Source: a virus. Taken from it: a DNA stretch of 64,000 nt. The translations under genes were made by a program, and so were the position numbers. The stretch is from the IMG/VR virus record IMGVR_UViG_3300011113_000784, positions 1-64,000 of that record; one strand, written 5' to 3'. Shown here in pieces: positions 10,371 to 47,016 of the stretch. The notes under the pieces are model-generated. The model was given only the letters and a program-made list of their open reading frames with translations, was not told the origin of the DNA and made no database searches. Position 1 is the first letter of the stretch. Every line of letters begins with the position of its first letter.

Positions 10371-11000
10371 TTATAACATTTTATAACGATTGTTTTGAAT
10401 TTTATTATTTGGTTTTTTTCTTTCTTCAATCAATTTGTTTTTTATTGATTTAGTAGATGACACATCTGATAAATTATAAGTAAATTCTCTTACATTAAGA
10501 AATGTATTAATGTCATTGAACATTTTTATCGGACTTGATATTAATTTATCATTTTCAACAATCATAAAGTTTTCGACTTTGTCTTTAAGTTTCATTGCAC
10601 TAGTGTAACATGCATCATATGATTTTGATTTTTCATCATAAGATGAATTTCTAAATTTTGGATTCACATATGAATTGTGTGCTGACCAACTCTTTATTAT
10701 GCTTTCTTTGCTTTTAAGGCAATAAACATAATAAGCTTTTGGCATATTTTCAATTAGCCAATCTGTGTGATTGTTTTCAACCCAAGGTCTTTTCAATATG
10801 ACTCTTTTTTCTTTTTGAGTTAAGGTAGCTATTTTTTCTGCATTGGCATTTAATAAAAAATCATTTTCTAAAATGAAACCCATTGATCCGTTATTGAATA
10901 AAATGAAATCAGGATGTTGTCTCAAAATATGCGCCACAATAGTGGTGCCAGAATGAGCCATTCCGCATATGATAATTAATTTATTGTTTCCTTCTATCAT
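10371..11000 (-). CDS. Sulfotransferase-like P-loop protein
   Basis: IIICGMAHSGTTIVAHIL (about residues 9-26) followed by RQHPDF is the PAPS-binding 5'-phosphosulfate loop of sulfotransferase-family proteins. VILKRPWVEN and a later FMIVENDKLI fit the family's 3'-phosphate region. The 209-residue length is short for the family. Neighbours are an amidotransferase and a glycosyltransferase, so transfer of sulfate to a glycan is plausible. A nucleotide kinase-like role cannot be excluded. Confidence 0.6.
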   Translation of the reverse strand: MIEGNNKLIIICGMAHSGTTIVAHILRQHPDFILFNNGSMGFILENDFLLNANAEKIATLTQKEKRVILKRPWVENNHTDWLIENMPKAYYVYCLKSKESIIKSWSAHNSYVNPKFRNSSYDEKSKSYDACYTSAMKLKDKVENFMIVENDKLISSPIKMFNDINTFLNVREFTYNLSDVSSTKSIKNKLIEERKKPNNKIQNNRYKML

Positions 11001-11479
11001 TTTTGTGGATACTGACTTATTGGAGCAGCCTGAGACATGTCAAATCCACTTGCTTGAGGTGTCTCTGGAGCAAGATCTTGTGTTGCCACATCTTTTGGTT
11101 TTTCTGTCTCAGGTGGCTTTTCTGTTATCTGGAAAGCGTTGACAGGAACACCCATTTTAGTAATAACTTTTTGCAAAGTATCAATTGTGCTTTTTAAAAC
11201 TTCTTCAATATTATCATTCTCATCAATTGACTTGGCTAATGCCACAGCACACTTTTGCAATGATTTTAAAAACTTTCTATTTTCATTGCCCCAGTGTCCT
11301 TGAAGAATACCTCTGGCTTTGTTGACAATGATTTGTCCGTATCGAACCAAATTTCTTGTTCCAATCTTATTCACTTCATCAGCTAGTTCTTGTGATGAAT
11401 TAAGAATGTCACCAATTTCTTTGGCTAAATAAACTTTGTTTTCGTTCAAAACATATGTTCTAAAATTGAAATCTGTCAT
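10997..11479 (-). CDS. Small protein with capsid-targeting-like N-terminus
   Basis: This 160-residue protein starts MTDFNFRTYVLNENK, similar to a family of N-termini in this window. Its middle is helical and the C-terminal 45 residues are Pro/Glu/Gln-rich and probably disordered. ATG 11479 is chosen because AATAAATA ends five bases upstream and there is no ribosome-binding site; ATG 11497 is an alternative. It overlaps the sulfotransferase-like gene by four bases. It is a candidate internal head protein. Confidence 0.5.
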   Translation of the reverse strand: MTDFNFRTYVLNENKVYLAKEIGDILNSSQELADEVNKIGTRNLVRYGQIIVNKARGILQGHWGNENRKFLKSLQKCAVALAKSIDENDNIEEVLKSTIDTLQKVITKMGVPVNAFQITEKPPETEKPKDVATQDLAPETPQASGFDMSQAAPISQYPQK

Positions 11480-11484
11480 ATTTC

Positions 11485-11492
11485 TATTTATT
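11485..11492 (-). promoter_or_regulatory. Late-like box AATAAATA
   Basis: Lies five bases before ATG 11479 on the minus strand. One of a series of T4-late-like boxes abutting start codons. Confidence 0.4.
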
Positions 11493-11518
11493 AACAAAGT
11501 ATCAAATGTTGTTTTTTA

Positions 11519-12379
11519 TTAGATCATTTTTATTGGCAAATTTGCATAATGTTCTTCCAATCCCGGTATTATTTTCCTCATAAAATAATTATTCTTCAAA
11601 ATATCTTTAAAATATTTGGAATTATAAACAGCCGATGGTATTCCTTCTGGTGAAGCTGACATTAAATGTATGTTATTGAATCGTTTAGCTAAACCATCTT
11701 GTTGAAGAATTAGCAAGCCAGAAGTGCCATTGTTACGAACCGTAATGTTATAAAAGATGTCCATAAATCTTGCTTTATCTCTTCTTCTGAAATTTCTTAA
11801 CATGGTTTCTTCTTGAATGCTGCACCTTTGATCACAATGTGGATAAACATTTTTAATATAATTTATTTTATCGTATTTACCATTCATTATGTCATTGTAT
11901 TCATCATCAATAAATTGTGTATATTTTTCAGTCGCATCTTTGGTTGAATCAAAATAAATTATGCCACCATTGACACCTAATCCATCAGCATTCAAAATAC
12001 CAACTTTGTCCCAATTAAAATTTGAAAATTTATTAAGTAGAAATACATCTGCATCTAAATATATTCCTTTATCTTTGTTTTGTTTGGCATGAAGATAACA
12101 ATTAATATGTCTTGAAAACATTTTCCAATTCATATTTGGTTGATTGCATTTTTCATAAATTGGTTTTTGTGAAACAATTTCAAAGTTTAATTGTTTAGAA
12201 GATTCATAAACCAAAGCGGGAGCATCATCATTTTCATATGTGATGACAACTATTCTATTGTTTGGATAAAAATGACGCAACACTATGATGGAAGTTAAAA
12301 AGCAACCCCAAAATTTATGAAAACCTTTAGACGGAGAATTTGTGTAAATTGCATAATAAAACACTATTTCTTCTTGCAT
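11519..12379 (-). CDS. Glycosyltransferase, GT-A fold (GT8-like)
   Basis: This 286-residue protein has YLDADVFLLNKF, a DxD metal and nucleotide-sugar-binding motif, in the middle, preceded by a Rossmann-like region (RIVVITYEND) and followed by NGGIIYFDS, as in GT8-like enzymes. It would transfer a sugar from a nucleotide donor, to phage DNA, virion protein or host glycan; the acceptor is not visible. It lies downstream of the tandem repeats at 12429-12607. TAAATTAA lies three bases before ATG. Confidence 0.65.
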   Translation of the reverse strand: MQEEIVFYYAIYTNSPSKGFHKFWGCFLTSIIVLRHFYPNNRIVVITYENDDAPALVYESSKQLNFEIVSQKPIYEKCNQPNMNWKMFSRHINCYLHAKQNKDKGIYLDADVFLLNKFSNFNWDKVGILNADGLGVNGGIIYFDSTKDATEKYTQFIDDEYNDIMNGKYDKINYIKNVYPHCDQRCSIQEETMLRNFRRRDKARFMDIFYNITVRNNGTSGLLILQQDGLAKRFNNIHLMSASPEGIPSAVYNSKYFKDILKNNYFMRKIIPGLEEHYANLPIKMI

Positions 12380-12428
12380 GGATTAATTTAGTATTTTTAT
12401 ACTATTTTGATTTAGTAGCAGGGTCATC

Positions 12429-12607
12429 GTGTCATCTGGGGACACATTTCTGAGTCATTGCTAGATTGCGGCTGCTTTTTCTGGCGACTCCAACATGATC
12501 GTGTCAACTGGGGACACATTTCTGAGTCATTGCTAGACTAATCTGTCCAGACTCACGACCAACATACGACTGTGTCAGCTGGGGACACAATTCTGAGTCA
12601 TTGCTAG
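12429..12607. repeat. Three tandem 36-bp repeats, about 72-bp period
   Basis: Copies lie at 12429-12464, 12501-12536 and 12572-12607. Each begins GTGTC, has a variable base in the loop, CTGGG, GACAC (a 5-bp hairpin) and ends TCTGAGTCATTGCTAG. They differ only at repeat position 7 (T, A, G) and position 19 (T, T, A). The two interspersed segments (36 and 35 bases) are mostly different but both end with a CCAACAT-GA-like stretch, suggesting degraded tandem units rather than CRISPR spacers. The array lies after the RNR gene and before the glycosyltransferase gene on the minus strand. A related singleton is at 21984. Confidence 0.85.
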
Positions 12608-12636
12608 AAGACCGATAAGGACATACAAAGTCAAAA

Positions 12637-15087
12637 TTATCCACATTTGCTCCATCCACAAGATTTACACAAAACACAACCATCATTACGCTCAACCTGA
12701 TTGCCTTGACATGAAGGACATTCTTCACCATGCACCTTCGTTCCATCCTTGATGTACTTCTTCAAGGTTCGTGCCAACACCTTACTAAGACTAACAAGGT
12801 CACCCTTAGTTTTTTCTAGTTGGTGAACAACAAAACTAATGTCAGCGCCATGTCGTAAAGATGTGCTGACCATGCGACACAAGGCATCGCCATTTTCATG
12901 ATTATGAATGTTAGAAAGATTAAATTCTTCTTCCGCAACTCTGAAAACATATTTGCCACGATTAAGCTTTTTAAGAGTTCCCTTGTGTTCTTTTGACTTA
13001 ATTAACGGTTCGCCATTTTCTAAATTCAAGCCAGCAAATACTTCGTATGGATCGCCGCCAAGCAAGCCAACAACAACATAATATGGCTCACCCTTGACTA
13101 CAGAGAAATGAACCTCTGCATTAATGTCAGCAGGACGCTTGGGCGAGTCGTTCTTGATAATCTTAGCATCCTTCTTTTCTTCCTTCTTGGGCTTTTCAAC
13201 CAACACACCAGTACGACAGTTCTTGCGATATACGGTCATACCTTTGCAACCATACTTCCACGCTGCTTCATAAATCTTAGCGACTTGCTCTTCAGTAACA
13301 TCTTCTGGAAGGTTTACAGTCTTGGAAATAGCATGGTCAATATACTTTTGAGCTTCTGCTTGCAGTTCTACAGCAGCAACCCAGTCGATATCTTCTGCAC
13401 AACAACCAAACCAAGGTGATTTTTTGAGATCTTTTTCACCTGTAACATCCATCCACATTTTGACTTTGGGATGGTAGACTTCAAATTCCTGCCAATGATC
13501 ACCATTTTGATCAACGAAGTCTGTACGGGCATTCTTATCAGTTGGATTAATCTTTTTTCTGCGAGTGTACGGAAAAAGCATGAAAAGTGGTTCAACACCT
13601 GATGTAGTCTGAGTCATGATAGACACAGAGCCAGTAGGAGCAATGGTAAGATTGGCAATATTGCGTCTTCCATGCTTCATGATATCGTCATACAACTGAG
13701 GATCAATTTCTTTGAGCATCAAAAGGAATTCAGAATCTTTTTCCTTTTCCCTATCCCAAACAGGGAATGCACCAAGAACCTTTGCCATCTCAACACTAGA
13801 GCGGAATGAGCCAAGACACAAAGCTTTGCAAATCTTACCTGTCAACTTAACGCTTTCTTTGCTGCCATAAGCTAAACCAAGAGCAGCAATAGTATCACCA
13901 AGAGCAGTCAAACCAGTACCAGTTCTTCTGCCATTTTCGCATTTCTTGTGTACTTTTTCCCACAATTCCAATTCGTTTGCCTTAATAGTTTTAGATTCTG
14001 GATCTGATTTTATTTTCTTGATAATGGCTTCAACTTTTTCAAGCTCAAGATCAATCATGTCGTCCATTAGACGCTGACAAATCTTGGCATGTTGTTCAAA
14101 CAACGGAAAATCAAAGTGTGCATTCTTCTTGAAAGGATTGACAACATATGAAAATAGATTCAAAACCATTAAGCGGCAGGAGTCATAGCTGCATAATGGC
14201 AATTCGCTGCAAGGATTTGTTGATATGGTTTTATATCCTTCATCAGCATAACAATCAACAGCGTTGTACTTGGTAATACGATCCCAGAAAAGGAGTCCGG
14301 GTTCAGCACGAAGCCATGCATTATGAATAATCTTCTTCCACAATTCTCTTGCATCAACATAGACATCGTTATCGCTTGGTGGGGCATCGACAGGAAAACG
14401 CAAACGGAATTGCTCACCCTTTTCAACGGCTTGTAAAAATTCATCACTCAACAAAACAGATACATTTGCTCCAGTAACTTTTGTATCATCGTTCTTGATG
14501 GTGATAAACTTTTCAATATCTTTGTGAGCAACATGGATAGAAAGCATGAGTGCGCCACGACGACCAGCCTGACCAACTTCACGAATGGTGTTGCTATAGC
14601 GTTCCATCCAAGATGGAATGCCTGTGCTAGTACGAGCAGCGTTCTTTACGGATGCTCCAGATGGACGAAGGGTGGAAATATCAACGCCAATGCCACCTCG
14701 TCTCTTTGAAATTTGAGCAAGCTCTTCATCGGCTTTGAGAATACCACCATAGCTATCGGCTGGACTTTCAACGACATAGCAATTAGACAAAGAGATAACT
14801 TGATGGTTATTACCGATGCCAAACATCGGACTTCCTTGGGGCACAATATATTTAAACTTATGCAATAATGCATAAATTTGATCTTCAGTTAAAGGATCTC
14901 TATGATTAATTTTTTCAATTCTTGCAAATTCCCTTGCAATTCTACGATGCATTTGATCAGGAGTTTCTTCAAGAAGATTGCCATTGTTATCTTTTAAGGC
15001 ATACTTATCAAGAAAAACTTTGGCAGCAAGCTCATCTCCTTCAAAATAAGAAACACACTTTTCAAAAGCATCGCTGTACTGGTACAT
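12637..15087 (-). CDS. nrdJ: Class II (adenosylcobalamin) ribonucleotide reductase
   Basis: This 816-residue enzyme reduces ribonucleotides to deoxyribonucleotides for phage DNA synthesis. Family marks are SNCYVVES followed by SYGGILKADEELAQI, KRRGGIGVDIS, the catalytic NPCSELPL region, and TIAPTGSVSIM. GMTVYRKNCRTGVLV and a C-terminal Cys-rich tail (CPSCQG, CVLCKSCGW) are typical of B12-dependent NrdJ rather than class I. No partner small subunit gene is adjacent. ATG 15087 follows a TGGGG ribosome-binding site. The host would have to supply cobalamin. Confidence 0.88.
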   Translation of the reverse strand: MYQYSDAFEKCVSYFEGDELAAKVFLDKYALKDNNGNLLEETPDQMHRRIAREFARIEKINHRDPLTEDQIYALLHKFKYIVPQGSPMFGIGNNHQVISLSNCYVVESPADSYGGILKADEELAQISKRRGGIGVDISTLRPSGASVKNAARTSTGIPSWMERYSNTIREVGQAGRRGALMLSIHVAHKDIEKFITIKNDDTKVTGANVSVLLSDEFLQAVEKGEQFRLRFPVDAPPSDNDVYVDARELWKKIIHNAWLRAEPGLLFWDRITKYNAVDCYADEGYKTISTNPCSELPLCSYDSCRLMVLNLFSYVVNPFKKNAHFDFPLFEQHAKICQRLMDDMIDLELEKVEAIIKKIKSDPESKTIKANELELWEKVHKKCENGRRTGTGLTALGDTIAALGLAYGSKESVKLTGKICKALCLGSFRSSVEMAKVLGAFPVWDREKEKDSEFLLMLKEIDPQLYDDIMKHGRRNIANLTIAPTGSVSIMTQTTSGVEPLFMLFPYTRRKKINPTDKNARTDFVDQNGDHWQEFEVYHPKVKMWMDVTGEKDLKKSPWFGCCAEDIDWVAAVELQAEAQKYIDHAISKTVNLPEDVTEEQVAKIYEAAWKYGCKGMTVYRKNCRTGVLVEKPKKEEKKDAKIIKNDSPKRPADINAEVHFSVVKGEPYYVVVGLLGGDPYEVFAGLNLENGEPLIKSKEHKGTLKKLNRGKYVFRVAEEEFNLSNIHNHENGDALCRMVSTSLRHGADISFVVHQLEKTKGDLVSLSKVLARTLKKYIKDGTKVHGEECPSCQGNQVERNDGCVLCKSCGWSKCG

Positions 15088-15146
15088 AAAAACCCCATAA
15101 ATTTAAAAAGCCTGATAAGATTTATAATAATAATGGTGAATTACAA

Positions 15147-15177
15147 AGCAAGAAAAAATAGATGTTTTTCTTGCTTA
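15147..15177. terminator. Stem-loop between SbcC and RNR genes
   Basis: AAGCAAGAAAAA pairs with TTTTTCTTGCTT across a seven-base loop. It lies downstream of the SbcC-like gene on the minus strand. A T-rich arm but no separate T-run on the minus strand makes termination efficiency uncertain. Confidence 0.5.
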
Positions 15178-15210
15178 TTCTAAAAGTTTACCATTATAAA
15201 TTTGAAAATT

Positions 15211-17214: not shown

Positions 17215-17218
17215 TGAA

Positions 17219-18322: not shown

Positions 18323-18351
18323 ATTATACCGAAATTACAAATAAGCTTCAA
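18323..18351 (-). promoter_or_regulatory. Sigma-70-like promoter for sbcD-sbcC
   Basis: On the minus strand TTGAAG, 17 bases and TATAAT lie upstream of ATG 18298. The leader then contains CCCGA/TCGGG, a 5-bp hairpin at 18305-18320. The promoter overlaps the 3' end of the neighbouring Gly/Pro-rich gene. Confidence 0.6.
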
Positions 18352-18703
18352 GCGGATCTTCTGGCTTAACCTTATCGCTAAAATATTTTTCTAATAAATC
18401 CCAAGCATTCAACTTTTTGATATCAGTAATTGGAGTTTGAGCAGCACCAGTAGCGGTTGCTCCTATTCCACCACCAAGACCACTAAGATCGCCACCGGGA
18501 GCGGATAGAGGAGGAGTTGCGCCTCCCAGTGATCCGCCCAAACCACCCAAGTCTGCTGGAGGTGTAGTGCCAGCGCCTGCGCCTGCTGGTGGAGTTGCTC
18601 CTAAACCAGCAGCATCACCACCAGCAGGCGGTGCGCCACCAGCAGCAGGAGCATCCTGTTCAGTTAAAAAATATTTTTCTTTAAATTGATGAATTGTGAT
18701 CAT
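18335..18703 (-). CDS. Gly/Pro/Ala-rich protein with capsid-targeting-like N-terminus
   Basis: This 122-residue protein starts MITIHQFKEKYFLTEQD, then a low-complexity Gly/Ala/Pro stretch (about residues 20-90) and a short ordered end (AWDLLEKYFSDKVKPEDPLE). ATG 18703 is chosen because TATATATT ends four bases upstream; the longer open frame crosses the divergent promoter. There is no ribosome-binding site. It is a candidate internal head protein released by cleavage after the N-terminal tag. Confidence 0.6.
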   Translation of the reverse strand: MITIHQFKEKYFLTEQDAPAAGGAPPAGGDAAGLGATPPAGAGAGTTPPADLGGLGGSLGGATPPLSAPGGDLSGLGGGIGATATGAAQTPITDIKKLNAWDLLEKYFSDKVKPEDPLEAYL

Positions 18704-18721
18704 ACAAAATATATATGTATG
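18704..18721. promoter_or_regulatory. Palindromic divergent late-like promoter
   Basis: CATACA and TGTATG flank an ATATATA core, with both start codons built into the palindrome. TATATATT is four bases from ATG 18703 (minus), and TATATATG is four bases from ATG 18722 (plus). No room exists for ribosome-binding sites, which implies leaderless transcripts. Confidence 0.5.
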
Positions 18722-19222
18722 ATGAAAACATTTTGGGAATATTTGCACAACGAACAAATAAGTGAACCTCAAGTGTCTGAGCGTCCAACTTCTGAAGTTC
18801 CTGCTACGGAAACACCTGTGGCAGCAACAAGAAATATTGCCACGCCAGCAGTTGGACAACCTGTTGCTCAACCCGCTGCACTTCCTCAGCCAGCAACCCA
18901 AAGTTTTAAACCTAGAATTAAACCTTGGAAAGCTAAAAAAAGCGAAATATTATCTTTTTGGAAAGCATTGGCACCAGATATTCCATTGCAATTACAGCCA
19001 ATTGATTCAGCTCACAAAGGTAGTACTTTACAACAAGACACAATTAGAGTTACTGGTACAAAAGAATTTATTACAACTATTTTGTCAAGATTAAAAGATT
19101 TTGTTGTTTATGAAAATCCTGATACAAAGTTAGTATTAGATTATAGACAAAATCAAAAAAGTTTAAAACCCGGAGAAAAAAATAGCTATTTATTTTATCT
19201 TAATGTCAGAAAGAGGAAGTAA
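18722..19222 (+). CDS. Small protein with capsid-targeting-like N-terminus
   Basis: This 166-residue protein starts MKTFWEYLHNEQISEP, very close to the T4 internal-protein leader MKTYQEFIAEA. A Pro/Ala/Thr-rich disordered region (about 15-70) precedes a compact basic domain (KPWKAKKSEILSFWKALAPD, then a beta-rich end with NSYLFYLNVRKRK). ATG 18719 is the alternative start. It lacks a ribosome-binding site and is divergent from another tagged gene. The C-terminal domain is unrecognised. Confidence 0.6.
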   Translation: MKTFWEYLHNEQISEPQVSERPTSEVPATETPVAATRNIATPAVGQPVAQPAALPQPATQSFKPRIKPWKAKKSEILSFWKALAPDIPLQLQPIDSAHKGSTLQQDTIRVTGTKEFITTILSRLKDFVVYENPDTKLVLDYRQNQKSLKPGEKNSYLFYLNVRKRK

Positions 19223-19459: not shown

Positions 19460-20878
19460 ATGGCTACTTTAATAACAGTTAATAATGATTTTTGCCAACT
19501 TCAAACTGATAATCAAGAAATTTTAAATTACCTTATTGCAAACTTAAAATTTAGGCAAAAGGGTTATCAATTTACACCACTTTATAAATCAAAAAAATGG
19601 GATGGATTTGTTAATTTTTTCTCTGCAAAAACAGGAAAATTTTTAACAGGCATACTTCCAGAAATTTGCATGATTTTGAAAAAATTTCAAGAAACATATG
19701 AATTTGACGATCACAGAACACCAATCAAGTTTAAGTTTGACAAAATTGATGAACACTTTTTGCAGTATTACAACGAAGACATGAACACAAAGATCGAACT
19801 AACTGATTATCAAGTGGATCTCGTCAACCAAGCTATTAAACATAAGCGTGGAATCATTGTTGCTCCTACAGCTTCAGGCAAAACTTTTCTTATGTCGGCT
19901 TTGTTAAAAGCTTTAGGTGAACATGAATCAACACTTGTTTTGCAAAATCGCAAATCTCTTGCAGAACAAAATTACGATGAAATATCCAGATGGGGATTTA
20001 AAAAAATCGGTTCTTGTTGGGGTGGAAACCATAACCCTAACAAGATCACTGTAGCAACAGCCCAATCAATTCATCATATGGAAGATCAACTGGATAAGAT
20101 TAGAGTGCTTATCGTTGATGAAGTTCATGATATGGTTTCTGATACAGCAAAAGACATATATAAAAAGCTTAAAAATGCTGTAATTAGAATAGGGTTATCT
20201 GCTACACCATTCAAGCATGGTGAAAGTGACAAGGTTCACAAATACATGGTCAAAGGTTTTTTTGGACCAGTAATTAAAACAAACACAACCTCCACAGGGC
20301 GTGTTACAACTTCTGATTTGCAGCAAAAAGGAAGACTCTCTCAATCAAAGTGCATTTTTCATAAAATAACAGAACCAGATATTCAACTATCAATCTATAG
20401 CGAAGCTGTAGATTTAGGTATTGTTAACAATGTGACGCTTCACAATAAGGTTATTGAAATTACCAACACGCTTTCTGGAAGAACTTTAATTTTGGTTGAT
20501 AGGATTGCACATGGAGATCAATTGAAGAAACTAATTCCAACTGCTTATTGGATCACTGGAAAAGATGACAGTGAATCCAGAAAAGAAGTTATTAATATGC
20601 TTCAAAGCTCAAAAACAAGTTGTATAGCAATTGCTACGCAACAGATATTTAATACTGGTATCAATGTAAAGATACATAATTTAATTAATGCTGCTGGTGG
20701 ACAGGCTGATCACCTGATCATTCAGAGAATGGGTCGTGGTTTAAGAACAGCCGACGATAAAAAAGAAGTTTTATATATTGATTTTATGTTTGAAAACAAT
20801 CCATATCTTAAAAAGCACTCGGCAAAAAGGGCTAAGATTTTGGAGAAGGAGGGACACTCTCTTCAGTTTCTCGACTGA
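19460..20878 (+). CDS. uvsW: UvsW-like DNA/RNA helicase
   Basis: This 472-residue SF2 helicase has Walker A APTASGKT (135-142), DEVHD (about 220), GLSATPF and a C-terminal RMGRGLRTADDKKEVLYIDF motif VI. The N-terminal 100 residues (KSKKWDGFVNFFSAKTGKF) match the T4 UvsW DNA-binding domain. UvsW remodels branched recombination intermediates and R-loops, controlling the switch from origin- to recombination-dependent replication. Its 3' end overlaps the converging gene by 47 bases. Confidence 0.88.
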   Translation: MATLITVNNDFCQLQTDNQEILNYLIANLKFRQKGYQFTPLYKSKKWDGFVNFFSAKTGKFLTGILPEICMILKKFQETYEFDDHRTPIKFKFDKIDEHFLQYYNEDMNTKIELTDYQVDLVNQAIKHKRGIIVAPTASGKTFLMSALLKALGEHESTLVLQNRKSLAEQNYDEISRWGFKKIGSCWGGNHNPNKITVATAQSIHHMEDQLDKIRVLIVDEVHDMVSDTAKDIYKKLKNAVIRIGLSATPFKHGESDKVHKYMVKGFFGPVIKTNTTSTGRVTTSDLQQKGRLSQSKCIFHKITEPDIQLSIYSEAVDLGIVNNVTLHNKVIEITNTLSGRTLILVDRIAHGDQLKKLIPTAYWITGKDDSESRKEVINMLQSSKTSCIAIATQQIFNTGINVKIHNLINAAGGQADHLIIQRMGRGLRTADDKKEVLYIDFMFENNPYLKKHSAKRAKILEKEGHSLQFLD

Positions 20879-21143
20879 CTTTTTGATAGAAAGCGTTGTA
20901 CAGATCAATAATTTTAGATGATTTATTTCCAAGTATTTCTTTAACGCCTTTTTTATCAGCGTCATTCATTTTAGTATAGCGATTCCAAGTTTTCATTCTT
21001 TCTGTAATTTTTTTCGGATCGAAAACATTTATATTGGCATACCAACCTTTTTTGTCATCTATGTTAAGTTGGAAATGATTTATAAATGCTTCCTTTTGAG
21101 CATCATCTTGTGCGCTTTCCAAAAATTGAATGAAAGTAATCAT
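20832..21143 (-). CDS. Small protein with capsid-targeting-like N-terminus
   Basis: This 103-residue helical protein begins MITFIQFLESAQDDAQKE, one of the shared leaders. The rest is basic and helical with no recognised domain; the tail is Ser/Pro-rich. TATATAGT ends three bases before ATG 21143 and there is no ribosome-binding site. It overlaps the uvsW-like 3' end. Confidence 0.55.
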   Translation of the reverse strand: MITFIQFLESAQDDAQKEAFINHFQLNIDDKKGWYANINVFDPKKITERMKTWNRYTKMNDADKKGVKEILGNKSSKIIDLYNAFYQKVSRETEESVPPSPKS

Positions 21144-21146: not shown

Positions 21147-21156
21147 ACTATATAGT
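21147..21156. promoter_or_regulatory. Palindromic late-like box ACTATATAGT
   Basis: A perfect 10-bp palindrome between divergent starts 21143 (minus, leaderless spacing of three bases) and 21173 (plus, which has AAGGAG). Confidence 0.4.
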
Positions 21157-21172: not shown

Positions 21173-21982
21173 ATGAGATTTGTTGAATGGGCTGGCAAAT
21201 CACCTGATGTCGTTTTTGGTTTTGATAAAAGTATTCCATTGAAAAAAGAACTTCGTTACAGCGAAGAACCAATGGAGCCTTTACAGATTGAAACAACTTT
21301 GGATGAAATTGTTAATCTCGGAAAAATTGGAACAAAAGATCCAGTGAAAGATTTTGGTTCAATGGTAACTTATGGAGATCCAAATCAAGTCGGATCTATT
21401 CAAATCAAGTTTAGTCCATTTGGTTCTTGCCGTGCAACAATCATGCGAAGAATTAGTGACCTTGAAGGAGAGCCAACATGGATCACAAGATATTCTGTTC
21501 CAGTTATTAATGATTATCAACATGCATCTGAGGAAGATATCGCAGTTGAAAAAATGCTTGCTGTTAGAGTTCATGAAATAGCAGACTATCTTGACAAAAC
21601 AACATTAGAATCTCCTAATGCCAAATATGAAAGATTACAAGAACTAGTTGTAATGATTGCCGCTAACATGAAACTTAAACATCCAAAAGTCATGAATTTC
21701 CAAGGTGTAATGAAACAAGACGAAAATACATATATCATTTATTTTTCATATAACGGTTATGGAATTGAAGCTCCCGGTCAAAGGAAGGTAAATCAATTCA
21801 ATGTTTATGTTGAATTTGTAAAACAGAAGGGATTAATAAGATCATGGGGAGCAGAATATTCTGCACCTCATTTGCTGTATAACTACGAGCCTCAATCGCC
21901 TGAATGGGATGAGTATTTCTCTCCTGATCAAAACAAGAATGAGATCGTAACAGTTCTTGAAAACATTTTCAAGACTTATTGA
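21173..21982 (+). CDS. Hypothetical protein
   Basis: This 269-residue alpha/beta protein is not recognised. AAGGAG lies eight bases before ATG. The start MRFVEWAGKSPDV weakly resembles the tagged-protein leader. It is followed at once by a hairpin (21984) shared with the converging gene. Confidence 0.5.
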   Translation: MRFVEWAGKSPDVVFGFDKSIPLKKELRYSEEPMEPLQIETTLDEIVNLGKIGTKDPVKDFGSMVTYGDPNQVGSIQIKFSPFGSCRATIMRRISDLEGEPTWITRYSVPVINDYQHASEEDIAVEKMLAVRVHEIADYLDKTTLESPNAKYERLQELVVMIAANMKLKHPKVMNFQGVMKQDENTYIIYFSYNGYGIEAPGQRKVNQFNVYVEFVKQKGLIRSWGAEYSAPHLLYNYEPQSPEWDEYFSPDQNKNEIVTVLENIFKTY

Positions 21983-22370: not shown

Positions 22371-22742
22371 ATGAAATCTTTTTTAGAATTTATTTTTGAA
22401 AATAATTTTTATGAAACTTATCCAAAAGAATTATCTTCTGAAGATATAATTAAATATATTTCTAAACATCATAAAGAAAATTTACATCAAGATTATATTG
22501 ATTATTTGAATACATTTAAAAAGTTTGTTTTAAAAGATATTGATTTAGATAAAATTGAAACAAATTTACCAGCTTTGGATAAATCAAAAGTTGAAGAATA
22601 TAAAAAAATGAACTTCAATCAAGCTCCGCCAATTGTAGTAGCAGAAAAATATATTTTAGATGGATACCACAGAACAAATGTAGCAAAATTTTTAGGATTG
22701 AAAACCATAAAAGGATATGTTGGCATTAATAACATTGATTAA
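22371..22742 (+). CDS. ParB/Srx-like domain protein with capsid-targeting-like N-terminus
   Basis: This 123-residue protein starts MKSFLEFIFENNFYE, a close match to T4 internal-protein leaders. The C-terminal part (residues about 85-115) reads APPIVVAEKYILDGYHRTNV then AKFLGLKTIKGYVG, the ILDGxHR signature of the ParB/sulfiredoxin fold, used by ParB CTPases and by nucleases. ATG 22371 has GAGGTG upstream and GATAAATA as a late-like box. A DNA-acting protein delivered with the genome is a reasonable inference. Confidence 0.6.
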   Translation: MKSFLEFIFENNFYETYPKELSSEDIIKYISKHHKENLHQDYIDYLNTFKKFVLKDIDLDKIETNLPALDKSKVEEYKKMNFNQAPPIVVAEKYILDGYHRTNVAKFLGLKTIKGYVGINNID

Positions 22743-23493: not shown

Positions 23494-23849
23494 CCGTTTA
23501 CTTTCGAATAAACGGGTCTGTTTCTAATTATTTAAACCAATTTGGGTCTGAAGTCAAATTGTAATTTTAAGTGCCTTAAAAGCAAAATTTGAAAGACAAA
23601 AAAATCTCAATTTTTCTTTCTGATTGGCACGGCGTTTGCGAATTAATAATACTAAGTATTTATATTAATACTTAAGAGAAAATAATTTCAATTAAGAAAA
23701 CCTATTTTTATTAAGTGGTACTAAATTACTCTGAGCGAAGCGAAGAGTAATTTATGTACCACTTAACTTAAAGAAGACCTAAGTACGAAGTACTTAGGTC
23801 TTAAATAAGAATAAATAATTTAATACGCACGAAGCAAAAACCGTGCCAA
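23494..23849. other. Folded non-coding element (candidate origin or structured RNA)
   Basis: This gene-free stretch holds four hairpins. They are CCGTTTA/TAAACGG (23494-23515), TAAGTATT/AATACTTA (23653-23674), a 22-bp stem with one bulge (23711-23766) capped by GCGAAGC, and a perfect 13-bp stem with GAA loop (23774-23802). The last three are enclosed by a 9-bp outer stem TTGGCACGG/CCGTGCCAA (23624-23632 with 23841-23849). GCGAAGC is known as an unusually stable DNA mini-hairpin found in some phage origins. No T-run follows the long stems, so they are not ordinary terminators. It lies at a divergence of transcription beside the PolA-like gene. Confidence 0.65.
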
Positions 23850-23867
23850 AATTCAAAAAAATAATTT

Positions 23868-23896
23868 TTGACTTGATTTGGAAAAATGGTTAAGTT
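23868..23896 (+). promoter_or_regulatory. Sigma-70-like promoter for the PolA-like gene
   Basis: TTGACT, 17 bases and TAAGTT place the expected transcription start close to GTG 23903, which has no ribosome-binding site; a leaderless mRNA is possible. AATGGT (23886) and ACCATT (23906) could also pair around the start codon. Confidence 0.4.
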
Positions 23897-23902
23897 TTTT
23901 TT

Positions 23903-25213
23903 GTGACCATTGAAAAAAATATTTTTGAAAGCATCTACGACACTTTTCGTGTCGAGCCATTCGTTTATTTGCAAATTTTAAATGAACCGGATTTGACAGA
24001 CAAAAAAAGTCTTTTATTACACATAAAGTTAATTGGACCAAAGGGTTCTAATTTTGAAATAAAATTACATCAAAATAACACATGCACATTTGTACATTAC
24101 ATTGCCAGTTGTTTGGAGCAATATAATCGCCCAATAATTTGCTTAAATTCCAAGCTTTTTCATTCATTTTGCTTAAGACAAAATTGTTCAAAATTAGTTG
24201 ATTTTAAATTTTTTTTTGATTTGAGTTGGTACTGTGATTATAACGAATCAAATTGTTCTTTTGATAAACTAAGTGATATCGTTTCTATATTTCTCCAGTT
24301 TATTAAATCAGATAATACTAAAATTTATAAAAATGTATTTCAAGAACTTATTTGCAAGACAGTTCCACATATGGAAAATCAAGGTATAATTTTAGATGAT
24401 GAAGCTACATTTACTTATCCTCATTATTCATCCAGATTTCAAGATAATGGAAGATTGAACTCTAAAGTTATTTCTAATAGAAATTTTAATCCACACACTT
24501 TGACTCATGAAGTTAAGACAAACTTTGTTTTAGCTGAAGATGAATTATTCATATCGTTTGACTTTAAAGCACTTGAGTTATATGTGTTGGCATTTTTGAG
24601 TAATGATGCTAACTTAAACACACTGTTATATAATACATGCCATCCATATGAACAAATTGCACAATATGTTCTTGATTTAAATAATTTTAAGAATGAGAAC
24701 TATAAAGATTTAGGTAAGAAATTATTCTTACCAGTTGTTTATGGCATTTCAGCATCAAAGTTATCTGAGTCTTTAGGTTGTTCTATTTTTGAGGCTAATT
24801 CTTATCTAAGAAAAACAAAGACTTTATTTAGCAAAGCATTTGATTATGTAGATCAACAAATGGCTCAAGCAGTCAACTTTGGTCATTGTTTCGATTACTT
24901 CAAAAGAAAAAAAAGTTTTGCCTCAGATGAGTGCTACAAAGCAATGAATTTTTCTGTTCATTCACCTGCTGCTGTCTTTTGTTTTATGAAGATGAACGAA
25001 ATTAATTCTTTGGTTAATAAAGATTTCCGCCTATTGTTCTCAGTGCATGACTGCTTTGTTTTTGCAACAAAGAAAGACAAACTAAATTCATCAGTGGTAC
25101 AAATTAGAGATATTTTACAAAAAGAATTTTCTGAATATAGACCATTGAGACTTATGGTCGATGTAAAATTTGGTGAAAATTTAGGATTTTTAAAAAATTA
25201 CTCTGAAATTTGA
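23903..25213 (+). CDS. Family A DNA polymerase-like protein
   Basis: This 436-residue protein has family A polymerase motifs in the C-terminal half: motif A ISFDFKALELYVLAFLS (about 214-230, keeping D and E of DYSQIELR), motif B with K and YGIS (about 270-281), and motif C FSVHDCFVF (about 380), where the usual HDE is HDC. The N-terminal 200 residues are too divergent to assign an exonuclease. The start is GTG. A DnaE-type replicase is encoded at 54-58 kb, so this enzyme is probably auxiliary (repair, Okazaki processing or priming-linked), unless it is the main one. Confidence 0.75.
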   Translation: MTIEKNIFESIYDTFRVEPFVYLQILNEPDLTDKKSLLLHIKLIGPKGSNFEIKLHQNNTCTFVHYIASCLEQYNRPIICLNSKLFHSFCLRQNCSKLVDFKFFFDLSWYCDYNESNCSFDKLSDIVSIFLQFIKSDNTKIYKNVFQELICKTVPHMENQGIILDDEATFTYPHYSSRFQDNGRLNSKVISNRNFNPHTLTHEVKTNFVLAEDELFISFDFKALELYVLAFLSNDANLNTLLYNTCHPYEQIAQYVLDLNNFKNENYKDLGKKLFLPVVYGISASKLSESLGCSIFEANSYLRKTKTLFSKAFDYVDQQMAQAVNFGHCFDYFKRKKSFASDECYKAMNFSVHSPAAVFCFMKMNEINSLVNKDFRLLFSVHDCFVFATKKDKLNSSVVQIRDILQKEFSEYRPLRLMVDVKFGENLGFLKNYSEI

Positions 25214-25266
25214 CTCTTTTAAATTTAAGGCTAATATTATGCCTATTGCTCAAGGAGGTAAATGAA

Positions 25267-25821
25267 ATGAAGATATTTCAGATGTTTAAGATTAACTCAG
25301 ATGAATTCAGGGAACTTGAAGATAAATTTGGTCAACTTTGTTTATATGCCAGTTGGCAATTAATGTCCAACAATTCTCGCAATAATCACCAGTTAGATGT
25401 TGATGATATTAAGCAAGAGTTACTTATGGCAGTTATTAGAGCCGGAAGTTATTATAAGAGACAAACTTACATCGAGGCATCATTTGAGACTTTGGAGAAA
25501 CATGTTCCGACTGATGGGATTTTCAGAGAAGTATTTGACTCGTTGAAGAATTTATGGAAAAATAAGACCCATCATGGTGCCTATCGACGCAAATTTGGCG
25601 ATCCTCAAGAAGAGATTCTTGAGAAGTTGGTTAAGAAATTTGTTCCGCCCTCGCACCGCCCCGATATAAACTTAAAACTTAACATCAACACGAAATTTGT
25701 TATTTACACGAAGCAGATTATCTGGAATGCTGCTCGTCATGTCGGGAAGAAGATTACCAAAGAGAAGAGCATTCGGGTTGGTCAGGTCTCTCTTTCCGAA
25801 CATGAACACCTCTACATCTGA
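25267..25821 (+). CDS. Sigma-like or replication accessory protein
   Basis: This 184-residue protein contains DVDDIKQELLMAVIRAGSYY, similar to sigma region 2 helices (D-x-x-Q-E-x-x-x-A), and near the end FVIYTKQIIWNAARHVGKKI, similar to a sigma-like Y-x-x-x-x-I-x-N-x-x-R. It may be a divergent sigma-type factor or merely helical. ATG 25267 has AAGGAGG eight bases upstream. It lies nine bases before the DnaB-like helicase gene, so a helicase-loader role is an alternative. Confidence 0.4.
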   Translation: MKIFQMFKINSDEFRELEDKFGQLCLYASWQLMSNNSRNNHQLDVDDIKQELLMAVIRAGSYYKRQTYIEASFETLEKHVPTDGIFREVFDSLKNLWKNKTHHGAYRRKFGDPQEEILEKLVKKFVPPSHRPDINLKLNINTKFVIYTKQIIWNAARHVGKKITKEKSIRVGQVSLSEHEHLYI

Positions 25822-37091: not shown

Positions 37092-37096
37092 GACTA

Positions 37097-38439: not shown

Positions 38440-38457
38440 GTAATAATATATATTTCT
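38440..38457. promoter_or_regulatory. Divergent late-like promoter
   Basis: An 18-base gap between ATG 38439 (minus) and GTG 38458 (plus) holds TATATATT on each strand, five and three bases from the start codons. No ribosome-binding site exists on either side. Confidence 0.5.
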
Positions 38458-38823
38458 GTGAAAACTTTTATCCAATATATTACCGAAGAAAGAAAGAATT
38501 CAGACTTTATGACAAGTTTGAATCTTTTGAACATTGATCCTAAAACAGCGGAAAAAGCTATTGAAAAAGTACCTTCTGTATTTTCACAAGCTATTTATGG
38601 TGATGATGAAATTGGCACTTCCGTTTTTGATGTGAAAAAAGTTGGTAAAAACTACATCATGAAAAACAGAAATGTTTTTGGTAATTTAACTTATAAAAAT
38701 CATGTTCCATCAAAATTGAAAATTAACACAATAGTAACGCCAACTTTTGTTGATTATTTGAAAAACCAAGGAATTGTTGGCGCTGAAAAATATAATGATT
38801 TTTTAAAAGGTAAGAAAGCATGA
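38458..38823 (+). CDS. Small protein with capsid-targeting-like N-terminus
   Basis: This 121-residue protein starts at GTG and reads MKTFIQYITEERKN, nearly the T4 internal-protein leader. The body is basic and mixed alpha/beta (DVKKVGKNYIMKNRNVFG). No ribosome-binding site; TATATATT ends three bases upstream. It is the first of three overlapping genes (38458, 38820, 39029). Confidence 0.6.
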   Translation: MKTFIQYITEERKNSDFMTSLNLLNIDPKTAEKAIEKVPSVFSQAIYGDDEIGTSVFDVKKVGKNYIMKNRNVFGNLTYKNHVPSKLKINTIVTPTFVDYLKNQGIVGAEKYNDFLKGKKA

Positions 38824-40718: not shown

Positions 40719-40739
40719 TTTTTGCTATATACAATAATT

Positions 40740-40763: not shown

Positions 40764-40770
40764 AAAAATT

Positions 40771-41199: not shown

Positions 41200-41200
41200 T

Positions 41201-41216
41201 TTTGCTGACCAGCAAA
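41201..41216. terminator. Short hairpin between converging genes
   Basis: TTTGCT and AGCAAA form a six-base stem with a four-base loop between converging stops at 41199 and 41229. No T-run. Confidence 0.3.
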
Positions 41217-41228
41217 GGATTACTATGG

Positions 41229-42793: not shown

Positions 42794-42794
42794 T

Positions 42795-43556: not shown

Positions 43557-43652
43557 AGCATCTCCAAATTATTGGATTATTCTTTCGATAACACAAAATA
43601 ATTGCGTTAATCTAATCGTAGTAATGTGTGCCTAGATCATACTGCTGTTAAT

Positions 43653-45014
43653 TTAGTGTGTTTCTTTATTAAATAACCACTCAGAAAAATTAAAATTTTT
43701 ATTTTCTTTTAGTTTTTTCAGTAGTTTTTCTCCACCTTTTTTGCCTTCGGGGGCACATTTTTTAGGATTTCTTTCACAGAAGGTATCAAAATATCTCGAT
43801 ACCTGTCTCAATGCAGCAATTAATTTTTTCCATTCAGGATTTTTCCCCAAATCTCTTACCAAGCCAGTATAGTAACCTCCAATTTCATAAACTTCATTGA
43901 AGGTATCAATAATAGCTTTGTCATATTTTTCATTTCCAAAATTGCATCCATTTGTTTTTAAAATGCCCACAACATCGTTCATAATTTTTTTCCAGTTGTT
44001 TTTTCCTAAATGCTTTATATTTTCAGGATGTTCTTCATAGTAAGACATTTTACGAGGTAATGCTTTAAATTTGTATAATCTCTTTATAGTGTCTAAAACT
44101 GAGAACGGAAATTCTTTGTTGGAGACTTTATCTAATATTTGCACTGCCATGTTGTCAAAACTACTTATAAAGTTTTTACCAACTGTCCCGCTCATAATTT
44201 TTTCTTCTTCTGGTTCAGGTGCTGGTCCTTTACGGAACATTTCGCCAGCAATTGGTTCACCAGCAGCCAGAGCCCTTCTTCTTTCTTCTTCTTCAGCCAC
44301 TTCTCTTTCTTCTGCTTCTCTTCTTTTTTCTTCAGCTTTTTTAACCTGCTCTTTTCTCTTTGTTTCTGTTTCTGTTTCTTTCTCTATTTCATCTTCTGCT
44401 TTTGGCTTTTCTAATGCATAAGCATATGGAGATATTCTTTCTGGGAAACCAGCACCAGTTCTTATGTCTGGAGCGCCATAACCTTTCATTTCTGGTTTTG
44501 ATTCTGGTTTTGATTCCTTGGGTGTTTGCACATCTTTTTTAGTTGATGCAGTGCTACTACTAGCAGATCTTGTTGTTGTCTTTCTTGTGCTGGTTGGAAT
44601 TGTTTCAGATTGCTTTTCAACTTCTGCTGGTTTCAGACTTTTCTTTTGTATTGAATATGTGACAAAATTATCTGTATTGTTTCTCAAATTTTGCAGAACT
44701 GTCTGGGCTTGCAATTTGTCGCCAGTATATTTTTCCACACTGTTGGCAAATGTTCTATAAGCAAAATCTAATTGATTTCTTAATGTTTGTTCTGCTTGGT
44801 CGATATCAGCAGTTCCATAACCTGCTCTGAATCCATGATAAAGACCTTTTAACGCACCACCAATACCACTAAAAATATCTTCTGATAAAATTGCACCAGA
44901 ATTTATTTGTTGTGATAATTTCAATAAATGTGAAGGATGAATTTTTTTCTCCACCAAAAAATCAATAAATTTTTTGTCGAATACTTTTTTATCTAAAGCG
45001 TTAAGCATTTTCAT
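43653..45014 (-). CDS. Large internal-protein-like protein
   Basis: This 453-residue protein has an N-terminal helical part, IFSGIGGALKGLYHGFRAGY (about 49-68, like the Gly-rich protein at 39029), a long disordered Ser/Thr/Lys and Glu/Arg-rich middle (about 130-275) and a helical basic C-terminus. It resembles packaged or scaffold-type proteins more than enzymes. AGAGGT precedes ATG. It starts 27 bases from the divergent HldE-like gene. Confidence 0.5.
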   Translation of the reverse strand: MKMLNALDKKVFDKKFIDFLVEKKIHPSHLLKLSQQINSGAILSEDIFSGIGGALKGLYHGFRAGYGTADIDQAEQTLRNQLDFAYRTFANSVEKYTGDKLQAQTVLQNLRNNTDNFVTYSIQKKSLKPAEVEKQSETIPTSTRKTTTRSASSSTASTKKDVQTPKESKPESKPEMKGYGAPDIRTGAGFPERISPYAYALEKPKAEDEIEKETETETKRKEQVKKAEEKRREAEEREVAEEEERRRALAAGEPIAGEMFRKGPAPEPEEEKIMSGTVGKNFISSFDNMAVQILDKVSNKEFPFSVLDTIKRLYKFKALPRKMSYYEEHPENIKHLGKNNWKKIMNDVVGILKTNGCNFGNEKYDKAIIDTFNEVYEIGGYYTGLVRDLGKNPEWKKLIAALRQVSRYFDTFCERNPKKCAPEGKKGGEKLLKKLKENKNFNFSEWLFNKETH

Positions 45015-45041
45015 ACCTCTGTCTATAACTCTATTTACTTT

Positions 45042-46424
45042 ATGGACAGATTTTTTTCTAATTTTTTTGATAAGCTTTATTCGTCAAATTTAACGATAAA
45101 TGTCATTGGCGATGTGTTAATTGATGAATATTATCAGGTAGAAGTTGATCGTATTAGTCCAGAGTTTCCAATCCCAATACATTCTTCCCAAACAGAGGAA
45201 GCCTCCAAAATTCTCTGTGGTGGTGCTGCAAATGTTGCCGCACAATTTAAAAATTTTGGCGTTAAAGTTAATCTTATATCATTGATTAATCCAAAAACTC
45301 AAGAAATATGTGAATTTAGTGGAATCAACACAAATAATTCAATTGTTGACCCATTAATTAAAAATCCTATTAAAAAGAGATTCTATAAAGATTTTCATCC
45401 TTTAATCAGATGGGATGTAGAACAAATCAATTTTGGTTTACCCAATGTTGGCGATTATCTTGAAAAAATTGATATTCCTGATGCGGATATTAATATTTTT
45501 TCTGATTATGACAAAGGTTTGTTTGCCACAAATTGGCATCAAAAGTTTTTCAAGAAAACAAAGTCTTTAGTTGATCCAAAGAAAAAATTTAATATATGGG
45601 AAAATTGTTATTTGTTCAAACCCAATGCTATTGAAGCTCAAAGTTTTGTATCAAAAAATAATGTGGAAGATCAATTAAAGTGGATAAAATCACTTCTTAA
45701 TTGCGAAAATGTTGTAATTACTGATTCTGGAAATGGTGTAAGCGCAATAGACGATAATGATAATTTGTATTATGTGACTCCACATAAAAAGGTTATAAAG
45801 CCAGAATCAGTTATTGGCGCTGGTGATTGCTTTATGGCTTTTCTTGCCATGTCAATTGGATTGAACATCGATTTGATGGATTGCTTAAGCATAGCATTTG
45901 AAGCTGGAACTAATTATGTGGCAAACAGATACAATAAGCCGCTAAATCCTTGTGATTTCTTTTTAGAAGATAAAGTCATCACTAATCCTGCCATTTTGAA
46001 AAACAGAGATTTTAATTTAGTGTGGAGTAATGGTTGCATGGATATCATGCACAGCGGACATATTCATTCTTTAAAATATGCAAAATCTTTAGGAGACAAG
46101 CTTTGTGTCGGAATTAATTCTGATGAAAGTATTAAACGATTGAAGGGCAATAATCGTCCTATTGTTTCTTTGCAAAACAGAATTGAAATGTTGAAGGCTC
46201 TTGATTGTGTTGATTTTATTGTTGTTTTAGAAGATGATTATCCACAAAAAATAATAGAACAAATAAATCCGAATGTTTTGGTAAAAGGAGAAGATTGGAA
46301 AGGTAAAGATGTAGCGGGTGCAAACATTGTTGATCGTGTTGAATATTTCCCCTTGGTTCAGGGGATGTCAACAACCAGCATAATTGAAAAAATTATTGAT
46401 GTTTATGGACAAGGTGATTCTTAA
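45042..46424 (+). CDS. HldE-like bifunctional sugar kinase / nucleotidyltransferase
   Basis: This 460-residue protein combines an N-terminal PfkB-type kinase (CGGAANVAAQFKNFG; VIGAGDCFMAF near residue 258) with a C-terminal cytidylyltransferase-fold domain (VWSNGCMDIMHSGHIHSLKY, the HxGH motif; GINSDESIKRLKG). This is the layout of HldE/RfaE, which makes ADP-heptose from heptose 7-phosphate. GT9-like genes at 60-63 kb could use the product. A related activated sugar is possible. Confidence 0.82.
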   Translation: MDRFFSNFFDKLYSSNLTINVIGDVLIDEYYQVEVDRISPEFPIPIHSSQTEEASKILCGGAANVAAQFKNFGVKVNLISLINPKTQEICEFSGINTNNSIVDPLIKNPIKKRFYKDFHPLIRWDVEQINFGLPNVGDYLEKIDIPDADINIFSDYDKGLFATNWHQKFFKKTKSLVDPKKKFNIWENCYLFKPNAIEAQSFVSKNNVEDQLKWIKSLLNCENVVITDSGNGVSAIDDNDNLYYVTPHKKVIKPESVIGAGDCFMAFLAMSIGLNIDLMDCLSIAFEAGTNYVANRYNKPLNPCDFFLEDKVITNPAILKNRDFNLVWSNGCMDIMHSGHIHSLKYAKSLGDKLCVGINSDESIKRLKGNNRPIVSLQNRIEMLKALDCVDFIVVLEDDYPQKIIEQINPNVLVKGEDWKGKDVAGANIVDRVEYFPLVQGMSTTSIIEKIIDVYGQGDS

Positions 46425-46521
46425 TAAATGGGCAATAGTGACATTGTCCAATAATTGTGGCAGTAATGCCAGTGAAAAGACCAAGAATAAAGGCAACTAA
46501 CAAAGTAATAAGCGTTTTCAT
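46393..46521 (-). CDS. Small membrane protein
   Basis: A 42-residue ORF starts MKTLITLLVAFILGLFTGIT, one hydrophobic helix or signal anchor, followed by CHYC. GGAGG lies eight bases before ATG 46521, the best ribosome-binding site in the region. It runs against the HldE-like gene and overlaps its 3' end by 32 bases. It could be a small holin-like or regulatory membrane peptide; no family is recognised. Confidence 0.5.
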   Translation of the reverse strand: MKTLITLLVAFILGLFTGITATIIGQCHYCPFIKNHLVHKHQ

Positions 46522-46538
46522 TTTTGTCTCCTCCATTC

Positions 46539-46546
46539 TAAATATA
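46539..46546 (+). promoter_or_regulatory. Late-like box TAAATATA
   Basis: Ends three bases before ATG 46550, which has no ribosome-binding site. Confidence 0.4.
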
Positions 46547-46549
46547 GAT

Positions 46550-46873
46550 ATGTTATCATTTAAACAGTTTTTAAATTATATTGAAGAACAGACAACTACT
46601 GTTCCTGTTGTTCCGACTAAACCTACTTCTACTGGAACAAAGCCAGCAACAACAGCACCTAAGATTCCTGATGCTACAAGAAAAAAATTAGATTCTGCTG
46701 CCGTCCGCAATACTGCTGCTATTAGGTTATATCAAACAGGCAAAACACAACAAGCAGTCGATGCATTGAGAAAAGACCCAAATTTTTTGCTGGCAATGCA
46801 AGATTTAACTAAGACAAGCGCCCCGGCTACCGCTTCTCAGTTGGTAAATGTTGCATTAGGTGGAAATCCATGA
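46550..46873 (+). CDS. Small protein with capsid-targeting-like N-terminus
   Basis: This 107-residue protein starts MLSFKQFLNYIEEQTTTV, followed by a Pro/Thr/Ala-rich stretch and a short helical domain (AIRLYQTGKTQQAVDALRKD). ATG 46550 is chosen over the upstream in-frame ATG 46457 because the tag motif and the TAAATATA box begin here. It is coupled to the next gene by an ATGA overlap. Confidence 0.6.
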   Translation: MLSFKQFLNYIEEQTTTVPVVPTKPTSTGTKPATTAPKIPDATRKKLDSAAVRNTAAIRLYQTGKTQQAVDALRKDPNFLLAMQDLTKTSAPATASQLVNVALGGNP

Positions 46874-47016
46874 CTTTTAAAGAATTTTTAAAATTGGAAG
46901 AAGCTAATGGACATGGAGGAAAACGCCATAACTCTTTCACTGTTCTAAGGATGAATTATCGTAATCCTCAACCGACTTCTGCTAAAAAGCAAATGAAAAA
47001 ACTATTTAAGATTTAA
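46870..47016 (+). CDS. Small basic protein with capsid-targeting-like N-terminus
   Basis: This 48-residue protein starts MTFKEFLKLEEANGHGG and continues as a basic peptide (KRHNSFTVLRMNYRNPQ ... KKQMKKLFKI). ATG overlaps the preceding stop. Length and charge resemble small DNA-binding internal proteins. Confidence 0.55.
   Translation: MTFKEFLKLEEANGHGGKRHNSFTVLRMNYRNPQPTSAKKQMKKLFKI

Follow-up and report, generated by a model that had tools for sequence, protein, structure and literature searches.

A putative T4-type capsid-targeting leader shared by dozens of otherwise unrelated proteins in a lineage of huge phages

Introduction

Why should ten small phage genes with otherwise unrelated bodies encode nearly the same N-terminus? 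The question is raised by the window studied here, a stretch of 64,000 nucleotides covering positions 1-64,000 of the virus record IMGVR_UViG_3300011113_000784 (110,967 bp as a whole, referred to below as the 111-kb record). A sequence-only reading of this window had likened the N-termini to the capsid-targeting sequence of the internal proteins of bacteriophage T4. In the T4 tag, positions 4 and 7 drive targeting, positions 8 and 10 drive processing, and the protease gp21 cuts after L/I-x-E (PMC9026906). The internal proteins of T4 are injected (PMC9026906; PMC12373910); there are three of them, all inhibitors of GmrSD (PMC12373910).

The analysis reported below indicates that the common N-terminus is very probably a T4-type capsid-targeting sequence belonging to an injected protein set with dozens of members. 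Targeting by the leader is well supported by the sequence comparisons, and we infer packaging, cleavage, injection and a counter-defence role by analogy with T4.

Results

Leader Genes of the Record

The record was compared with LR756511.1, an uncultured phage of 595,163 bp and 42% guanine plus cytosine (GC). By tblastn, 61 of 123 record genes were matched there, mostly in collinear order and in inverted orientation, between 466 and 300 kb; the record therefore comes from a huge phage.

All ten open reading frames are open from the starts named in the sequence-only reading. The leader fit was close in eight of them, and the other two (11479 and 18703) are variants off the motif proposed there. 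Both variants are backed by positional orthologues with clean leaders in LR756511, namely MEFKKFLITEQ for 11479 and MRSFRQYITEVLLNE for 18703; in the latter case, both genes adjoin a gp47-like gene. The search for more leaders, which had been suggested as a check, added one gene in the window (21173) and five beyond it, so that 16 leader genes (11 in the window) are listed for the record:

10997-11479, minus strand: leader protein, 160 amino acids (aa), MTDFNFRTYVLNENKVYLAK... (start at 11479 MTDFNFRTYVLNE, off-motif); LR756511 orthologue MEFKKFLITEQKEYLAD
18335-18703, minus strand: leader protein with variant leader MITIHQFKEKYFLTE, 122 aa, Gly/Ala/Pro-rich
18722-19222, plus strand: leader protein MKTFWEYLHNEQ..., 166 aa, Pro-rich at first and then basic; G001 and G007 have similar leader genes
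20832-21143, minus strand: leader protein MITFIQFLESAQ..., 103 aa; orthologues keep the leader, next spacer variable
21173-21982, plus strand: leader protein MRFVEWAGKSP..., 269 aa, not among the ten first noticed; LR756511 orthologue MKSFASWFNEY
22371-22742, plus strand: leader protein MKSFLEFIFENN..., 123 aa; weak ParB-like match (PHROG E=0.01)
38458-38823, plus strand: leader protein MKTFIQYITEERKNS..., GTG start, 121 aa
38820-39032, plus strand: leader protein MTGFKKWLQVDEVATSTADVA..., 70 aa
39029-39652, plus strand: leader protein MRSFIDFIEDKD..., 207 aa, middle Gly/Ala-rich
46550-46873, plus strand: leader protein MLSFKQFLNYIEEQ..., 107 aa, Pro/Thr-rich
46870-47016, plus strand: leader protein MTFKEFLKLEEANGHGG..., 48 aa
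66740, minus strand, beyond the window: leader gene MIGFKKFIES
69533, minus strand, beyond the window: leader gene MRSFIQFVEQ, with an HEVAH string
107381, minus strand, beyond the window: leader gene MYIKFSEWVENRE
108105, minus strand, beyond the window: leader gene MNLQFSLWLEST on an AAA_33 kinase (Pfam E 5e-15)
109671, minus strand, beyond the window: leader gene MRFKEWLLLSEK

A leader of about ten residues, with aromatics at positions 4 and 7 and a hydrophobic residue at position 8, is thus found on otherwise unrelated bodies. The diversity of these bodies, claimed from the start, holds (Gly/Pro-rich, basic, and enzymes in the lineage), whereas the label 'ParB-like' applied to one of them corresponds to the weak PHROG match listed above. 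From residue 1 onward, the 38458 protein weakly matched PHROG 8765 'internal virion protein' (E 0.086), and the 69533 protein appears metallopeptidase-like by inspection because of its HEVAH string. Searches of the 39029 and 21143 proteins against annotated phages gave no match. Assignment of the 109671 protein as a T4 Alt-like ADP-ribosyltransferase was not supported (AlphaFold mean predicted local distance difference test score 63, best Foldseek E 0.018); PARP matches appeared only at E above 2, and no PDB sequence match was found. Three further motif matches (5344, 19190 and 45042) were rejected as leaders because the motif is not kept in their orthologues, and one at 74818 was rejected by inspection, being without a leader-bearing orthologue.

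Enrichment at Gene Starts

Of the 142 candidate starts in the window, 4 fitted the motif as originally proposed; shuffling gave a mean of 0.01 and did not reach 4 in any of 2000 rounds. A relaxed motif based on the T4 tag was also applied, with shuffled N-termini and internal Met codons as controls. It matched 12 of 128 record genes, compared with 0.8 after shuffling (at most 3 in 50 rounds), and none of the 453 internal Met codons of the record. For LR756511, 41 matches were obtained among 1093 genes against 4.1 in shuffles, and roughly 50-60 leaders were recognized by eye. Gene starts thus carry the leader 10-20 times more often than shuffles, and the signal recurs in the relatives G001, G007 and G014. 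Phage T4 itself yielded 5 matches among 272 genes, IPII and IPIII included, and other phages with or without an S77 protease gave 0 to 2.7 matches per 100 genes.

Compared with the T4 sequence MKTYQEFIAEA, the leaders agree at positions 4, 7 and 8 and also at positions 2, 3 and 6, which were not used in the search: K2 was present in 22%, T3 in 29% and E6 in 33% of leaders, against a background of 6.4% for Glu. Codons TGG, TTY and TAY all serve for the aromatic residue at position 7, TGG being the commonest, and this mixture of codons points to selection on the protein.

Head Genes and Prohead Protease of the Lineage

A gp21-like prohead protease, proposed as a check on the full genome, was found together with T4-type head genes in two relatives of the record. 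In G014, a near relative (UvsX identity 82%), the head block follows the T4 order: portal, leader protein, 587-aa protein, gp21, a protein in the gp22 position, and gp23. The portal (Portal_T4 E 9e-71) contains an intein (L085:10973-13501), gp21 matched PF03420 (E 9e-25) and a PHROG head maturation protease (E 4e-46), and gp23 matched its PHROG at E 1e-84; the protein in the gp22 position gave no profile match. In LR756511, gp21 lies at 525956-526579 and gp23 at 523509-524981.

A second, weaker S77-like frame was observed in LR756511 at 242585-242980 (within a 304-aa open frame), far from the head genes and near a leader gene at 244790. Large proteins of 641-1040 aa starting with a leader were also noted (G007 23567-25489; G001 63323-65314; G014 49149-51776; LR756511 469121-472279). 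Those of G007, G001 and G014 are mutually similar (MKLFSEYF / MRLFNEYI), and that of G007 precedes tail genes; these large proteins are possibly Alt-like packaged proteins.

Late-Type Promoter Element

The start codons of leader genes are preceded by TAAATA or TATATA, with the element starting mostly at -10 or -11. In both divergent pairs of the window (18703/18722 and 21143/21173), one palindromic element is common to the two genes. The following elements were located:

11485-11490, minus strand: late-promoter-like TAAATA, -11 to -6 of the 11479 start
18704-18721, no strand assigned: 18-bp spacer with a palindromic ATATATAT element between divergent 18703 (minus) and 18722 (plus)
21149-21154, no strand assigned: palindromic TATATA common to divergent 21143 (minus) and 21173 (plus); -11 to -6 of 21143
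38447-38452, plus strand: late-promoter-like TATATA, -11 to -6 of 38458
46539-46544, plus strand: late-promoter-like TAAATA, -11 to -6 of 46550

In the record, the element was present in 9 of 12 callable leader genes compared with 12 of 111 others, a difference whose p is descriptive since the pattern was chosen on these genes. With the pattern fixed beforehand, it was found in LR756511 ahead of 34 of 59 leader genes versus 83 of 1034 others (p=3e-20). In the reverse test, 32 of 61 genes picked by the element alone carried a leader, compared with 67 of 1032. The element also precedes tail and prohead-core genes, and it looks like a T4-type late promoter because the promoter-picked genes without a leader include a tail-tube gene and a 1640-aa fibre-like gene. 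Shine-Dalgarno-like sequences were rarer ahead of leader genes (11/59 vs 383/1034), which suggests that their mRNAs are leaderless or nearly so. These promoters could be read by a gp55-like sigma factor encoded in the window:

1596-2243, minus strand: gp55-like late sigma factor; PHROG 234 'late sigma transcription factor', E 9e-8

Cleavage Motif, Grafting and Cargo

L/I-x-E was present within 16 residues in 59 of 139 leader genes (about 42%) and in 319 of 1625 others (20%; p=4e-9); when the same leader residues were shuffled, the rate was 21%.

The leader behaves as a tag grafted onto different bodies. In the family of the 21143 protein, the leader is kept (MITFIQFLE, MITFIQFME) and the next spacer differs in length and sequence. 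The 107381 protein and its LR756511 homologue are alike in their C-terminal part, each with a leader of its own and a different segment between. Homologues of the 109671 protein start MLRFRSFIQEARRN, MRFINFLIEARRN and MITLKQFMLEKRK in three other contigs, and three near-identical copies (L290-L292) have no leader. The kinase homologue starts MNLQFSLWLESTEAEKKSIFVLIGPP in the record and MKAFAQWVEKADGKRKIFVLVGPP in contig L248, compared with MNLKNLKEPFVIVLIGPP and MALSSGKRLLILVGPP in phages without the leader; elsewhere, homologues of the kinase, HAD, NADAR and CCA enzymes mostly start at the domain, without a leader.

Across the lineage and linked contigs, with the window as one part, leader-bearing enzymes include CCA-adding/polyA polymerase head domains (LR756511 580680, E 1e-25; contig G028, E 8e-22), a tRNA-ligase-type phosphodiesterase (E 8e-9), a HAD phosphatase of an RNA-repair family (E 2e-15), NADAR (E 2e-19; NCBIfam NADAR anti-phage family E 2e-29, below the curated cut-off), an S-adenosylmethionine (SAM) lyase (E 5e-7), a C39-type peptidase (E 5e-14), a flavin mononucleotide reductase (E 4e-15) and the 108105 kinase of the record. 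The place of G028 in the lineage is loose, because it has only four matching genes in common with the record. Most other bodies matched nothing. A complete packaged tRNA repair set was considered and rejected: the set is partial, as the kinases and RNA ligases of LR756511 have no leader, and a complete packaged repair pathway is not claimed because of these ligases. A search for RNA ligase (PF09414) in the 111-kb record found none.

In another huge phage, LR745206, one 120-kb part holds a leader series of its own, MIKK[FWY]x[EQ][FY][IL]xE, with 6 strict matches in 140 genes; its S77 match is below the curated cut-off, and its leader genes have no common promoter element. One CCA enzyme of LR745206 begins with MILKKYKMFLESRES, which may be a separate leader.

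Other Genes of the Record

The left edge of the record falls inside a T4-type tail tube gene, which shows the record to be a fragment. The two tail tube genes are as follows:

72-539, plus strand: T4-type tail tube protein, truncated, lying at the left end where the record is broken
649-1230, plus strand: second T4-type tail tube protein

Several further genes were noted. PrkA-like, DUF444/YeaH-like and SpoVR-like genes, named by inspection, stand in a row at window positions 48305-53184, with 51-63% identity to LR756511. A PolIII-alpha-like protein, also named by inspection, is split between 54598-55800 and 56143-58614 of the window, and its halves match adjacent LR756511 sites. A DUF5872-like protein at record positions 80930-81928 (L001:16930-17928, minus strand) appears by inspection to contain an intein and ends in a leader-like motif, LPTFTEWLHNRENQ. 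Highly repetitive fibre-like proteins of up to 2154 aa, with SGNIASGQIG-type repeats, were seen at record positions 88491-103661 (L002:4491-19661, minus strand).

Discussion

The T4 capsid-targeting reading offers the best explanation of the common N-terminus, considering the T4-type head genes, the tag positions, the L/I-x-E enrichment and the late-type promoters. Several results weigh against it. More than half of the leaders have no L/I-x-E within 16 residues and the position of the Glu varies; exact T4 spacing, with Glu at position 10, was found in 2 of 128 record genes. Cleavage of leader proteins may be partial or follow another rule. No leader excess was seen in four S77 T4-type phages (HTVC008M, immuto, Mel-JY01 and RM378), so S77 alone does not predict the leader, and the idea of many leaders in every S77 phage is ruled out. 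The S77 family search of the 111-kb record itself gave no match, the record having no head genes because the head region is not on the fragment; the absence of a protease, which had been named as a refutation, does not hold as one because gp21 is present in the lineage.

A different possibility is that the leader docks proteins onto another phage hub, such as the replisome, the membrane or a sigma factor, in which case they would be recruited in the cell and never packaged. Several proteins of the Staphylococcus phages Twort and K (L214-L226), which have no S77, start M-x-F-x-[DE]-F-[IL], and at least some of these we take to be replication proteins by their appearance; this start is possibly a different docking motif. 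In the record, none of the recognized replication genes carries the leader, and the promoter element is common to leader, tail and prohead-core genes. The agreement of K2, T3 and E6 with the T4 sequence and the finding that homologues from other contigs bear almost the same leader, for example MRFINFLIEA, also argue against docking elsewhere, which is therefore considered improbable. Marginally less probable still is that the leader targets the head core and the proteins serve there as structural scaffold or core parts instead of injected effectors. The leader protein between portal and gp21 in G014, at the place of T4 gp67/gp68, and the low-complexity, Gly/Pro-rich composition of some bodies would fit such a role. 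Against it stand the many enzymatic bodies (CCA-adding, kinase, NADAR, SAM lyase, C39 peptidase), which have no evident scaffold use, and a gene set that differs strongly among close relatives.

The least credible explanation is that the likeness arose by chance or as a side effect of 5' coding ends that are AT-rich and suit leaderless translation. Immediately ahead of the genes the sequence is AT-rich with rarer Shine-Dalgarno sequences, and 4 of 16 core-motif matches in the record were spurious; this explanation is nevertheless largely refuted by the shuffle and internal-Met controls, and the predominance of TGG at position 7 and the same signal in LR756511 at 42% GC also speak against it.

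If the leader is indeed of the T4 capsid-targeting type, the small genes would be transcribed late in infection from a T4-late-like promoter lying directly at the start codon, and their mRNAs would probably be leaderless or nearly leaderless. The leader of 8-10 residues would dock each protein onto the prohead core, and the gp21-type protease would then clip many of them after L/I-x-E. Once the DNA is packaged, the freed proteins would be ejected with it into the next host cell and could act ahead of any phage gene expression. Within the huge-phage lineage, dozens of small proteins and enzymes with no relation to one another have acquired the tag by grafting. A bolder proposal, to which we give slightly less than an even chance, is that the lineage packages and injects roughly fifty tagged proteins as a counter-defence kit made in advance, among them enzymes of tRNA/RNA repair (CCA-adding enzyme, kinase, tRNA-ligase-type phosphodiesterase and HAD phosphatase), a SAM lyase, NADAR and peptidases, with tag and promoter forming an exchangeable cassette that makes any enzyme virion cargo. 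If so, damage by host defences would be countered before phage gene expression.

The novelty lies in the lineage, that of huge phages; in the scale, with 16 leader genes in 111 kb and, in the 595-kb relative, 41 by the strict motif; in the enzymes among the cargo; and in a late-type promoter element dedicated to these genes. The literature searched contained no description of a comparable tagged set in huge phages, and a 2026 review (PMC13282480) gives Tad1 as the sole anti-defence protein so far described from jumbo phages. A short leader would allow head-carried phage proteins to be predicted from sequence alone, would turn what in T4 is a speciality of three proteins into one of dozens in the largest phages, and would provide natural packaging tags with new cargo classes. 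It also points to enzymes that act in RNA repair, in SAM degradation and in the chemistry of ADP-ribose as candidate first-minute counter-defences.

Comparison with Known Systems

Other phages are known to carry proteins into the host. In P1, DarB and other Dar proteins are injected anti-restriction proteins with an N-terminal packaging signal; unlike here, that signal lies within the first 30 residues, and there is no consensus among Dar proteins (PMC9024508). The inner-body and ejection proteins of phiKZ, 201phi2-1 and SPN3US resemble the present set in that giant heads eject many proteins which a protease related to gp21 has cleaved after Glu (PMC9026906). Unlike here, the phiKZ cleavage site is S/A-x-E and a propeptide has several of them, and no short common leader was found in the part of phiKZ scanned. 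T4 Alt, a packaged ADP-ribosyltransferase, shares with the present enzymes the (here predicted) carriage in the head and injection, and differs in that no ADP-ribosyltransferase was identified among the leader proteins.

In T4, the conserved gene 61.1 (NC_000866, 18966-19130) was observed to start MKTFKEFIKEDM, a clean capsid-targeting leader, and its product may be an unrecognized internal protein; no paper on a virion role of gp61.1 was found in the literature searched.

The closest likeness is to T4 IPI, IPII and IPIII (MKTYQEFIAE, cut before A): a 10-residue tag with aromatics at 4 and 7, a hydrophobic residue at 8 and frequent K2, T3 and E6, unrelated bodies behind it, and a lineage with gp21, a T4-type portal and gp23. 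Homology to IPI-IPIII themselves was not found, neither PHROG nor Pfam confidently matching a leader body with an internal protein. Unlike the T4 internal proteins, the present set has a loosely placed Glu and its own late-type promoter element at about -10, and in place of three proteins it comprises 16 in 111 kb and roughly 50-60 in the 595-kb relative, with the tag on many enzymes.

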